A program made the translations under genes and the position numbers. The notes under the pieces are model-generated. The model was not told the origin of the DNA. It did no database searches and saw only the letters and a program-made list of their open reading frames with translations. A DNA stretch of 64,000 nt from Actinomycetes bacterium (GTDB lineage: Bacteria; Actinomycetota; Acidimicrobiia; Acidimicrobiales; Poriferisodalaceae). Each line of letters starts with the position of its first letter. The first letter of the stretch is position 1. This document shows positions 12,353-16,639 of the stretch, one piece after another. Where the stretch lies: contig JAAETH010000149.1 in the NCBI GenBank assembly GCA_024228575.1, positions 1 through 64,000 of the forward strand. Direction: 5' to 3'.

Positions 12353-12736
12353 TCAGGTGAGGGTGATGACTACGCCAGCGTCGCTGGTCTTGTCCTTGCC
12401 GAAGAGACCAGCGACCTTGCCAACGACTCGCATCATCGTCACCTGCCAGCCGTACTTGTCCTTGACGGCGGCCATGACACGATCGAGATCGGCCGCTTCG
12501 GCGGTAGCGGTTCCCTCGACCGCTTCGGAACCATCGACGGGAACCCCCTTGGCGTTCGACGGCTGGAGCTTGACGCGTGGATCGTTGGCCAGGCGCCGCG
12601 CCTTCCACGATGAGCTGGACGTGGTGAAGCCGACCGTGTCGTCACCGAGGTCGGCGATCCAGACCGGTGTTGTTTTGGCCTCACCGTTCTTTCGGTAGGT
12701 CGTGAATGCAACGTACTTGTTGTCGGCGATGCTCAT
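12353..12736 (-). CDS. PPOX-class, probably F420-dependent oxidoreductase
   Basis: The 127-residue split-barrel protein begins MSIADNKYVAFTTYRKNGEAKTTPVW, typical of the Rv2061-like F420-binding pyridoxamine-5'-phosphate-oxidase-like proteins of actinobacteria. RRLANDPRVKLQPSN and the late KDKYGW motif also fit. It probably reduces an unknown small molecule with F420H2, although FMN or heme binding also occurs in this fold. The frame is open upstream, but ATG 12736 sits 6 bases from a TATGCT hexamer and begins the conserved part. Confidence 0.78.
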   Translation of the reverse strand: MSIADNKYVAFTTYRKNGEAKTTPVWIADLGDDTVGFTTSSSSWKARRLANDPRVKLQPSNAKGVPVDGSEAVEGTATAEAADLDRVMAAVKDKYGWQVTMMRVVGKVAGLFGKDKTSDAGVVITLT

Positions 12737-12742
12737 GACTGG

Positions 12743-12748
12743 AGCATA
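12743..12748 (-). promoter_or_regulatory. -10-like hexamer TATGCT before the PPOX gene
   Basis: Read on the minus strand, TATGCT lies 6 bases before ATG 12736, with no Shine-Dalgarno sequence between. It is a probable leaderless promoter. Confidence 0.45.
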
Positions 12749-12871
12749 ACGAGACCTGGTGCGCGGACAACCCCGCCGGATCGATCCGACGGGGTTGCTG
12801 TTGGGAACCAATCTCGGGACTTGGCGGGTGTCTCGCCGGTGGCGAGAAGTGTCCGCGCCCGAAGGGTTCTC

Positions 12872-14509
12872 CTACTCGGCGGCAGGCAGCAGTTCCTTGA
12901 CGTCGAGTTCTGAACGCTGGAAGATCCCCAGGGCTCCCTTCAGGCCAACGGTCATGACGATGTTGACGAGGAAGGCCACGAGGGCCGCTATCAGCAATGC
13001 TCCGCTGAGTGCGGCGAGGATCATGTACTCGCTGAAAGTTCCTTCGACATCGATGGTGCGTCGCAGCATTCCCTGCAGACCCGCCATCCCCATGAAGGCG
13101 CCCATACCAATTCCACCGATGAGGTGGGCCCAGAAGTGGAAGGTTGCCAGCTTCTGGCTGTACAGCTTCGCTCCATTTGTGAGGATTGGCAGGAGGAGGT
13201 AGATCGCCGAGTACAGGGTCATCGAAAGGCCGATGAGGATCGCGACGTGGACGTGGGGTCCGACGATCCACTGGGTGTTGTGAAGCACCCGGTTGAGTCC
13301 GACGTCTGCCTGGAGGATCCCTGCGGGGACGGCCAGAGCGAACCCGAGCAATCCGCCGAGCAGGAACTTCAGCTCGTTGGTCATCTTCAACGGACGCGCA
13401 GACCACAGGCACGCCAGGGTGATGAAGAACGCCAACCCCTGCGTCAGTAGCTCGAAGGCCGTGACCATCTCACCCGATGCAACCTTGAGCATTGCGGGCT
13501 GTGACTGATCCGACAACAGGTGGTGTGACCAGACGGTCCACGACACGACCAGCTCAACACCCAACGCGAGGCGGGCGAGGTTGGCCATCGGGACTTCCTT
13601 GCCCGTGATGAGGCTCGCCAGCAGGTACCACGTACCGGCGACGAAGATCAGCACCAGGCCGTCGGCGACGAGGTCGAGTCCCCACCAGAACCAGTTCTTG
13701 TACAGCAAGGAATCGACAGCGGTCGTCTCCAGGCTGCTGCCGAAGAGTTCCCACACCATGTACACGAGGATCAACACACCGGTGCCGGTGATGATGATGA
13801 CGTTCAGGGCCATGTCGACCGAGCCGCGAGCGATTGCTGCGACCGGCAGTGAGACGGCGTGTTCCTCTTTCTCCTCTGTCTTCTTCCGGCGCTTGAACAC
13901 TCGGGTCCAGGCGGTCAACCCAAGAGCCGAGGCCAGCAGCTTGCCCGCGGGTTGGGGATCCCACCCCTCGGGTGTGTAGGTGATCGTCTTGAAGATGTTG
14001 ATCACGAACAACCCGGTGCCGACCATCACCATCGCAATTCCGACGATGAAGATCGCACCGCTGAGCGGGTGGAACTGATCGAAGTCTGCGGGCAATGGCC
14101 AATAGAGGGTGTACAGCGGCGCGTAGTGGCTGATGAACCCGTCGAACCAGAACACAAACGTGCCGACGGTTGCCAGCCAGAACGTGTACAGGGCCATCTT
14201 GTAGCTCCAGAGCGGCTTGCCCATCAGGAACGGCACAAGGAACAGGAAGGCTCCGAACACGATCATGTAGGTCGATCCGAATATCCCGACGAGGGGGTGG
14301 GCCGTGAGAATTCCGAAGTATTGCTCCTCGCTGATCACGCCCACCTGCTCGACCTGGTAGATCCGCATGATCATGCCCTCGATGGCAGCGAAGGCGTAGT
14401 ACACGAGGCCGATGATCACGAAGCGGAGGCTCAGCTTCTGCATCGGGGTCAGGCTCTTGGGTTTGAAGGCGTTCTCGTTTCCGTTGAGGAAGGTTTCGGT
14501 GATGGTCAT
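12872..14509 (-). CDS. Heme-copper oxidoreductase subunit I, NO-reductase-like active site
   Basis: This 545-residue, roughly 12-helix protein belongs to the heme-copper superfamily. Heme ligands are in place: His71 (TAHPLVGIFG) and His419/His421 (NTQWIVGPHVHVAI). Two active-site metal ligands are present as His329-His330 (VWSHHLLSD). Fifty residues earlier, where oxidases have HPEVY or GHPIVY and cytochrome NO reductases have HLWVEG, it has DLVADG: Asp279 replaces the first metal His and Asp283 stands where Tyr or Glu is expected. Loss of the cross-linked Tyr argues against O2 reduction and for NO reduction. The start overlaps the subunit II stop (ATGA), with GGGAGCG upstream. Confidence 0.8.
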   Translation of the reverse strand: MTITETFLNGNENAFKPKSLTPMQKLSLRFVIIGLVYYAFAAIEGMIMRIYQVEQVGVISEEQYFGILTAHPLVGIFGSTYMIVFGAFLFLVPFLMGKPLWSYKMALYTFWLATVGTFVFWFDGFISHYAPLYTLYWPLPADFDQFHPLSGAIFIVGIAMVMVGTGLFVINIFKTITYTPEGWDPQPAGKLLASALGLTAWTRVFKRRKKTEEKEEHAVSLPVAAIARGSVDMALNVIIITGTGVLILVYMVWELFGSSLETTAVDSLLYKNWFWWGLDLVADGLVLIFVAGTWYLLASLITGKEVPMANLARLALGVELVVSWTVWSHHLLSDQSQPAMLKVASGEMVTAFELLTQGLAFFITLACLWSARPLKMTNELKFLLGGLLGFALAVPAGILQADVGLNRVLHNTQWIVGPHVHVAILIGLSMTLYSAIYLLLPILTNGAKLYSQKLATFHFWAHLIGGIGMGAFMGMAGLQGMLRRTIDVEGTFSEYMILAALSGALLIAALVAFLVNIVMTVGLKGALGIFQRSELDVKELLPAAE

Positions 14510-15093
14510 GACACGCTCCCGTCGCACGTCACGTGGACGACGTCAGGAATCGTCATGTTGGTGCCGGCCGGTCCTGAGTATTCGGTCGACTTGATGGTGA
14601 GGTCGCCCTCCTCCTCGAACTCCCAGATGATGTCGTTCGCCGAACCGGGGTTGACCTGCATCTGCATGATCATCGAATGATCAGGCCGGAACAGCCCGAA
14701 TCCGTAGGTGAGATCGTTTGAGGTGACCGAGAACATCACGGTTTCACCGCAGGTGATGTTCATCGGCTCGCTCGGCAGGGCGAACTCGTGGTCCTCGACC
14801 GTGATCACGAAGGTCTGGGTGGGTTCGAAGCGGCCCCGATGCAACTCGGTCTCCGACCAGGGAATCGTGTTGTAGGTAACGATGTGCAGCGACACGCCGA
14901 CCACAGCGAGGAACCCTACGAATGAGTAGAACACCCAGGAAGGCACAGGTCGCGCCTCACTTCCCTTGGTCACACCGATGGCGAACCATCCGATGAGAAG
15001 TGTGATGACCAAGACGTAGGCGGTGTAGATGAGGGTTTGTCCCCACAAGACCGTGTTCGTCTCGACTGCTAGCAGCGATGCAGAGCCGACCAT
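14506..15093 (-). CDS. Heme-copper oxidoreductase subunit II without CuA
   Basis: The 195-residue protein has two membrane helices (about 18-42 and 53-72), then a cupredoxin domain starting near FVITVEDHEFALP. In CuA subunits the metal loop reads CxExCGxxHxxM. Here it is STEYSGPAGTNM (169-180), with both Cys changed to Ser and His to Gly, and the earlier HSF-type His is Tyr130. The fold is kept but CuA cannot form, as in quinol oxidases, so quinol is the likely electron donor. A GGGAGGAAACC ribosome-binding site precedes the ATG, and the gene is coupled to subunit I. Confidence 0.8.
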   Translation of the reverse strand: MVGSASLLAVETNTVLWGQTLIYTAYVLVITLLIGWFAIGVTKGSEARPVPSWVFYSFVGFLAVVGVSLHIVTYNTIPWSETELHRGRFEPTQTFVITVEDHEFALPSEPMNITCGETVMFSVTSNDLTYGFGLFRPDHSMIMQMQVNPGSANDIIWEFEEEGDLTIKSTEYSGPAGTNMTIPDVVHVTCDGSVS

Positions 15094-15178: not shown

Positions 15179-15568
15179 TCAGGATTTGATAGCCGGGAGA
15201 GATGCCAGAACCTGAACCATCGCTACCAGTGATGCCTGCCACGCGGTGTGTAGTGCACATTCGTCGACACCACACGGCCCGCCGGCGAGGACACATGTGT
15301 CGCTGTCGATGGGCCCCTCGACAGCTTCGACGACCTCGAGTACCGAGACCGCCCAGGCGCGTGTACCCAGGCCGTAGCCGCCGCTCCGACCAGATCGCGA
15401 CTGGACGACCTCGATCTCGATCAGTGGTGCGAGGGCCTGGGCGAGGAAGGTCGGCGATGTGGCCGTCAACTCCGCCAGATCCTTGCCGGACCACATGCCA
15501 TCGGAGGAAGCGAGGATGCGCAGCGCCTCGAGTGCGATGTCGGTTCGCCTGCTCATCTCGAGGCGCAT
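15179..15568 (-). CDS. Rrf2-family Fe-S transcriptional regulator (NsrR/IscR-like)
   Basis: The 129-residue protein starts MRLEMSRRTDIALEALRILA and has the winged helix of Rrf2 proteins (SPTFLAQALAPLIEIEVVQSRSGRSGGYGL). Three cysteines, Cys92, Cys99 and Cys104, span the same 12-residue interval as the cluster ligands of IscR/NsrR, though spaced x6-x4 rather than x5-x5. It therefore probably carries a Fe-S cluster that senses NO or redox state. ATG 15568 has GGTGAAG upstream. It precedes the oxidoreductase genes by 85 bases on the same strand and probably controls them. Confidence 0.8.
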   Translation of the reverse strand: MRLEMSRRTDIALEALRILASSDGMWSGKDLAELTATSPTFLAQALAPLIEIEVVQSRSGRSGGYGLGTRAWAVSVLEVVEAVEGPIDSDTCVLAGGPCGVDECALHTAWQASLVAMVQVLASLPAIKS

Positions 15569-15679: not shown

Positions 15680-16639
15680 TCATCTAGTGATCTTCCAGAA
15701 GACTCCGAATGCTCCTATGGCTGCCATCACGAGGGCTCCGGCTGCGACCACCCACACGAGGGTTGAGAGATCGACCGGCTTGATCGTCTCGTAGTTCTCG
15801 AGATTCTGGTCGAACACATCGATCAGCGTCGTGAACGAGGCCATCGACTCGTCGAGCGTCGACAACACCTGGGCTGTGTTCGGGTAGGCACTCAGAAGAT
15901 CCATCATCTCCTCGGTGCTGATCCCGAGACCCTCGGCGAGGCCGGGAATGGTCTTGGTCGTCATCTCTTCACCCATCGCTGCGAGCACCTCGAGGCCAGC
16001 CTGTGCACCGGTGACCGTTTCGGAGGTGTATGCGGGTTTCAGAGCCGAGTTCATGTCGTCGGCGTCGGTCGCCTTGCTCAATAAGTTGACGGACAGGAGG
16101 GTGATCAGAGCGAGCACGCCAACGATCAGCGAGAACATCGACACGAGCCTCACCTTCCCCCGCAGGGCGACGGCGCCGAGCACGAGTGCGATGATCCCGA
16201 GGATGAACAGGCTCCACGGAACCGTCTGGGCAGGCAGGTCACCCGTCGGGATCGAGTCGGCAGACTCGAAGTTCGCTTGCTGGCTCTGGAGAAGCCCGAT
16301 GATGCCGTTGAACTCGGCGCTCAACTGTGGAATCGCTGCCATCCCCTGAGCGGTGGCCGGATACTGTTGTTCGAGGAGCCCGCCGACCTGCTCTGGGCTC
16401 ATGCCCATGCCGATCGCGAGTGCCGGAACGACCTGGTTGCTCAACTCGTCGCCGGCCGCAGCGATACCGTTCACGCCCTCCTGATATGCATCGAGGGTTT
16501 CGGTGTTCATCACCGGCCGAAAGCCGTCGGTCATCTCCTCGAAATCGGTGCCGACCCTGAAGAGGTTCTGTGCCAGAACCAAGATGATGAAGATGGCTCC
16601 CACAAGAACCAGCGTCCCGCCGACGATGAAACGTCGCAT
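15680..16639 (-). CDS. Four-helix membrane protein with an internal duplication, function unknown
   Basis: I do not recognise the family. The 319-residue product has helices at about 5-24, 141-160, 164-187 and 293-313. The two long loops (about 31-140 and 190-292) are homologous: FRPVMNTETLDAYQEGV matches LKPAYTSETVTGAQAGL, and ALAIGMGMSPEQVGGLL matches GLAEGLGISTEEMMDLL. The protein is thus a tandem copy of helix-loop-helix, with both loops probably outside the cell. A GGAGGAAGG site precedes the ATG. It lies 111 bases upstream of the Rrf2 gene on the same strand, so an envelope stress link is possible but unproven. Confidence 0.7.
   Translation of the reverse strand: MRRFIVGGTLVLVGAIFIILVLAQNLFRVGTDFEEMTDGFRPVMNTETLDAYQEGVNGIAAAGDELSNQVVPALAIGMGMSPEQVGGLLEQQYPATAQGMAAIPQLSAEFNGIIGLLQSQQANFESADSIPTGDLPAQTVPWSLFILGIIALVLGAVALRGKVRLVSMFSLIVGVLALITLLSVNLLSKATDADDMNSALKPAYTSETVTGAQAGLEVLAAMGEEMTTKTIPGLAEGLGISTEEMMDLLSAYPNTAQVLSTLDESMASFTTLIDVFDQNLENYETIKPVDLSTLVWVVAAGALVMAAIGAFGVFWKITR

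Follow-up and report, generated by a model that had tools for sequence, protein, structure and literature searches.

The question raised by this locus is whether a member of the heme-copper oxidase (HCO) superfamily, in an Acidimicrobiia (Actinomycetota) genome, takes electrons from quinol and reduces nitric oxide rather than oxygen. The window, meaning the whole stretch of 64,000 nucleotides that was analysed, carries on its minus strand an operon with the gene order Rrf2 regulator, subunit II and subunit I. We suggest that this operon very probably encodes a gNOR-type, quinol-dependent nitric oxide reductase.

Genes of the operon

The operon consists of the following genes.

12872-14509 (-): subunit I, 545 aa, putative NorG/NorH-type catalytic subunit of the heme-copper oxidase superfamily (PF00115, E 6.8e-49; fold)
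14506-15093 (-): subunit II, 195 aa, N-terminal membrane part and a cupredoxin-like domain without CuA (weak CoxB match over residues 109-183; alignment)
15179-15568 (-): Rrf2-family regulator with three Cys (CVLAGGPCGVDEC), likely the regulator of the operon (TIGR00738; position upstream)

The reading frames and residue numbers of the original prediction were re-derived from the window and are correct. Subunit I starts with an ATG at 14509, subunit II starts at 15093 and the two genes overlap by 4 bp. We found no denitrification gene beside the operon. Subunit I does not reach the cut-off of any curated oxidase or NOR subfamily; the best NCBIfam match gave 91.6 bits, against a cut-off of 671. 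The AlphaFold2 model of subunit I has the heme-copper oxidase fold (pTM 0.81), and the best Foldseek match (E 8e-12) is to subunit I of cytochrome oxidases. The confidence of the model is below 50 at residues 272-281, the active-site loop.

Directly downstream of subunit I, at 12356-12811 on the minus strand, is a gene for a PPOX-class F420-dependent oxidoreductase (TIGR03666, scoring above the cut-off). The gene at 15683-16639 (-), upstream of Rrf2, encodes a 319-aa membrane protein that matches no family at cut-off and that, judged by eye, consists of two similar halves.

Metal and heme ligands

The residues of subunit I that bear on its function are located as follows.

14297-14299 (-): H71, low-spin heme ligand (alignment)
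13673-13675 (-): D279, replaces the first CuB/FeB histidine (faces His in three global alignments and against c/qNOR)
13661-13663 (-): D283, at the place of the oxidase Tyr, the c/qNOR Glu and the sNOR Asn (alignments)
13520-13525 (-): H329-H330, remaining metal ligands (invariant in all HCOs aligned)
13451-13453 (-): E353, aligns with the second Glu of c/qNOR (FSALE; invariant in the family)
13247-13255 (-): H419 (high-spin heme) and H421 (low-spin heme), in GPHVH (alignments)

The three heme histidines (71, 419 and 421) and the His329-His330 pair are found where they had been predicted. It had also been claimed that the position of Asp279 is always His in oxidases and in cNOR, and this holds in the global alignment for all 30 comparison proteins, which comprise A, B and C oxidases, cNOR, qNOR and sNOR-like enzymes. 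The global alignments further confirm that the oxidase Tyr is absent and that Asp283 stands at the NorB Glu position; D283 faces or neighbours Tyr (A and B), Glu (c/qNOR) or Asn (sNOR-like). The position of E353 is, among the compared proteins, acidic only in c/qNOR and never in oxidases or sNOR-like enzymes.

When the family is aligned pairwise with only the A, the B or the C oxidases, the register is off by 1-4 residues. The A-type pairwise alignment alone would make D283, not D279, the equivalent of the histidine, and we rejected this on spacing. The distance from the H/D position to the HH pair is 50 residues here and 49-51 in other families. Moreover, the D279 family and an sNOR-like protein (L130) share an ungapped segment from KN to HH, K-N-x6-[H/D]-x3-[N/D], with 50 residues from H/D to HH. 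Because the H/D-to-HH and KN-x6 spacings are common to this family and the sNOR-like proteins, D279 is taken as the equivalent of the histidine.

Both Asp codons of the WWGLDLVADG segment are GAC. All 81 family members (the window and 80 loci) read WWGLDLIAD or WWGLDLVAD, with SHHL 50 residues past the D279 motif and then HNTQWxxGPHVH. A 40%-identical homologue from Chloroflexota, the phylum of the Anaerolineae member, reads WWGLDMVAD and retains D279, D283, HH and E353 (locus L145). Since Asp279 is fixed in 81/81 members and kept in this homologue, a sequencing error or a mutation in a single genome is ruled out, and the replacement of one metal-binding histidine by Asp is real. We did not find a compensating histidine in the family alignment, which contains no extra family-specific His. 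The family-invariant histidines are H71, H329, H330, H410, H419, H421 and H458; H410 and H458 were rejected as stand-in ligands, since both also occur in oxidases (HNTxW and HFW).

Subunit II had been predicted to have lost all CuA ligands. Alignment with sNOR-like and B-type proteins bears this out, as both Cys are replaced by Ser and the second His by Gly. In addition, the first CuA His is gone and a Tyr is found instead (DLTYG for DVxHG), which had not been noted before. The second His is a non-His residue across the family, the Glu of the CuA motif is kept and the Met is kept nearly always.

14554-14589 (-): STEYSGPAGTNM, degenerate CuA loop (CxEYCGxAHHxM in CuA-bearing relatives; alignment)

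The relatives for which subunit II was examined keep the STEYSG version of this loop, and it is these relatives to which the statements on CuA loss and on the adjacent two-gene layout across the family refer. Subunit II of the 40%-identical homologue also holds a degenerate motif, STEYSGP. The operon contains no heme c gene and its CuA is lost, so that a membrane quinol is, judging from these sequences, the likely electron donor.

A complex that has lost CuA and one canonical metal ligand could also lack catalysis altogether, as a gas-binding or degenerate complex that is retained for sensing or for a structural purpose. We consider this highly improbable. Relatives from several phyla, at about 70% identity, retain both Asp, all the remaining heme and metal histidines and the two-gene layout, a conservation that argues for strong selection on catalysis.

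Phylogeny and distribution

We found 317 relatives of subunit I in a scan of 84,980 species genomes. The best 80 of these 317 are about 69-79% identical over nearly the full length and come mostly from Bacteroidales, with further members in Ignavibacteria, Anaerolineae, Acidobacteriota, Neomarinimicrobiota and Actinomycetota. Among sampled genomes, the gene is present in 12 of 395 in the phylum of a Bacteroidota member, in 4 of 297 in the phylum of locus L069 and in 2 of 201 in the phylum to which the Anaerolineae member belongs; in the window's own phylum it was found, at high score, in 1 of 396. Homologues with 72-80% identity are present in other genomes of the host class, Acidimicrobiia, and in the tree the window sits with other actinobacterial members (100/99). 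None of 60 nearest relatives carries the gene, and it was therefore probably gained by transfer. A phage origin was rejected, as there was no phage match and no relative in viral contigs; a plasmid origin was rejected as well, the plasmid matches being only distant haloarchaeal oxidases (22-29%). A COX1 match in an Ignavibacteria MAG (G465:C99:7040-8374) contains five TGA codons in frame and comes perhaps from a contaminating mitochondrial contig.

The phylogeny proposed as a check in the original prediction was run, with A, B and C oxidases, cNOR, qNOR and sNOR-like proteins for comparison. The Asp279 family forms its own clade (100/100), outside the A, B and C oxidase groups, so that the tree gave no placement inside an oxidase clade; the alignments showed no compensating His. 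The clade falls with the A, B and sNOR-like proteins on one side of the tree (98/98) and has no settled sister among A, B and sNOR-like proteins. Grouping with C oxidases was rejected (p 0.017), and grouping with c/qNOR has a lower likelihood but was not rejected (AU p 0.10). The profile comparison gave probabilities of 99.6% for B, 99.3% for A, 99.1% for sNOR-like, 97.5% for C and 10.6% for c/qNOR.

Being closest to the B-family and then to the A oxidases in this comparison, and having A-type oxidases as best fold matches, the enzyme might be read as an oxygen-reducing quinol oxidase with a modified active site, in which D279 replaces one CuB histidine and the Tyr is missing. This is unlikely, as the Tyr-His cross-link is impossible, the family is a separate clade with fixed acids at the c/qNOR positions, and many genomes carry its gene along with those of ordinary oxidases.

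Relation to known enzymes, predicted role and regulation

The gNOR type is reportedly due to Hemp & Gennis 2008 and Sievert et al. 2008, the latter said to be the genome paper of Sulfurimonas denitrificans, and is said to be retained by Murali et al. 2024. The original prediction left open whether its ligand set is one of the proposed NOR subfamilies. In kind it is. One CuB/FeB histidine is replaced by Asp in certain NORs, as stated in PMC3475470 with reference to Hemp & Gennis 2008 and Sievert 2008; gNOR has an Asp at the oxidase Tyr position and is carried by Sulfurimonas, Sulfurovum and Persephonella (PMC8756737, Table A4); and gNOR, encoded by norGH, is quinone-oxidising and non-electrogenic (PMC8906906). 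That the Asp-for-His type is gNOR follows from the Sulfurimonas source cited for the former, Sulfurimonas being a listed gNOR carrier, rather than being spelled out.

The window enzyme likewise has an Asp at the Tyr position (D283, in 81/81 members). Both gNOR and the window enzyme with its relatives consist of two subunits, of which subunit II is a cupredoxin. CuA ligands are absent from those relatives of the window enzyme whose subunit II was examined, and these enzymes may, like gNOR, oxidise quinol. gNOR is further described as having no conserved proton channel. In the described features that could be compared, we found no difference between gNOR and the window enzyme. The window enzyme is thus probably a gNOR, a membership based on these features rather than on a tree shared with the named gNORs (Sulfurimonas, Sulfurovum, Persephonella, Methylomirabilis). 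The enzyme is not new in kind. What is added here is modest, namely the link to a regulator, E353 as a counterpart of the second c/qNOR Glu, and how widely the family is spread. Our search of the open literature gave no measurement of gNOR activity and no description of an Rrf2 link or of E353 for gNOR, which is described there only from sequence or transcripts and appears to be among the least studied types of NO reductase.

The sNOR-like proteins (norSY; Ruegeria/Silicibacter, Nitrosomonas) share with the window family the KN-x6-[H/D]-x3-[N/D] segment, a similar subunit II and, in two roseobacters, an Rrf2 neighbour. They differ in that they have three metal histidines, carry Asn in place of the Tyr and retain an intact CuA site, none of which applies to the window enzyme. 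B-family (ba3-type) oxygen reductases are the best profile match and have the HNTxW...G-HxH motif and a cupredoxin subunit II in common with it, whereas their Tyr, third His and CuA are all missing here. More generally, A, B and C oxygen reductases have three CuB histidines and an active-site Tyr, which lies at H+4 in A and B; the window enzyme has neither the Tyr nor the full set of three histidines.

The likeness to cNOR and qNOR is in the acids at both conserved Glu positions (D283 and E353 here). However, cNOR and qNOR keep all three FeB His, have the Glu of HxWVEG and are distant in the profile comparison and the tree; cNOR uses heme c and qNOR has a fused N-terminal domain, and the window enzyme has neither. 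A metal site of two His and carboxylates, unlike those of oxidases and c/qNOR, could instead belong to an NO enzyme with another product, for instance by NO dismutation, or to a dual NO/O2 scavenger, N2O formation not being the main reaction. The proposed NO dismutases are also variant HCOs, but they are homologous to qNOR (PMC6094997), from which the window family is far (probability 10.6%), and we regard this as quite unlikely.

The gNOR-type reading, a quinol-fed enzyme that would reduce NO rather than O2 as originally predicted, is supported by the family's own clade, the loss of CuA, the lack of a compensating His and the link to Rrf2. In brief, subunit I would hold a low-spin heme (H71 and H421) and a high-spin heme (H419) beside a non-heme metal bound by H329, H330 and D279. 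This metal is likely Fe, because two His and carboxylates suit Fe. D283 and E353 would serve as acid groups for NO binding and protonation, membrane quinol would give the electrons, and two NO would be converted to N2O and water. The fixed site of two His and a carboxylate raises the biochemical question whether NO can be reduced without a third histidine.

In the host genome (G000; 96.9% complete, 960 contigs), subunit I is the only PF00115 protein found. We did not find CydA of cytochrome bd or NrfA, absences that are no proof in an assembly of this completeness and contig number, and there was no NirK above cut-off. The family enzyme is the only heme-copper oxidase in 6 of 25 other genomes, and all six have cytochrome bd. 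The genomic context suits NO detoxification better than denitrification, and in the host NO detoxification is a more likely role than respiration. Through this locus, gNOR would be placed in an Acidimicrobiia genome that yielded no second heme-copper oxidase and no bd-type oxidase. With 317 relatives in a single scan, the family of the enzyme is broad; it is also strongly conserved and is missed by standard family models. Its members are likely to be annotated as cytochrome c oxidase, whereby aerobic respiration and N2O production would be miscounted.

An Rrf2 gene lies directly upstream of the operon genes, on the same strand, in 49 of the 74 loci whose upstream sequence is long enough. The Cys triad of this protein is retained in 49/49, 49/49 and 48/49 copies, position by position, the window included. 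The Rrf2 protein of the window matches TIGR00738 (E 2e-18) with 66.5 bits, just under the cut-off of 73.3 bits; it scores nearest to this Rrf2 superfamily model, rather than being established as NsrR. NsrR, which belongs to the Rrf2 proteins, detects NO by means of an Fe-S cluster, and the regulator found here would probably be an Fe-S sensor of NO as well, controlling the operon. Of 49 loci, 14 have a palindrome-like ATAC-n(4-6)-GTA[TG] ahead of the Rrf2 gene, compared with 0.7 in shuffles; none was found in the window's own promoter.

More tentatively, we speculate that the enzyme combines a non-heme Fe, whose ligands are two His plus one or both of the carboxylates D279 and D283, with a self-regulated operon for NO detoxification (Rrf2 sensor, subunits II and I) that has spread among anaerobes, a combination that is possible but on balance doubtful. 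If true, its metal site would be unlike the three-His site of characterised heme-copper enzymes, and some carriers of the operon would have no oxygen-reducing heme-copper oxidase.

On plasmids of Ruegeria pomeroyi and Parasedimentitalea, a divergent Rrf2 gene adjoins sNOR-like genes (L135:1340-3868 and L137:348-2834), which are annotated in the records as oxidase subunits or not at all. Plausible NO-stress proteins encoded near the operon in other loci are a truncated globin (L032:8621-9085), a DUF6448-hemerythrin fusion (L089:1346-2407) and a ferredoxin-DUF1858-DUF2249 protein (L072:12157-14058). Crp/Fnr regulators are found near the operon in single loci. In two Ignavibacteria-type loci (L079:8864-9328 and L083), a small membrane protein occupies the place of Rrf2 upstream of the operon, and a relative of it is encoded on another contig in a third genome (L132:552-1040). 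These proteins of 154-163 aa have an HTH motif and resemble part of COX1 (PF00115, E about 1e-6), and one copy is DUF2871-like.
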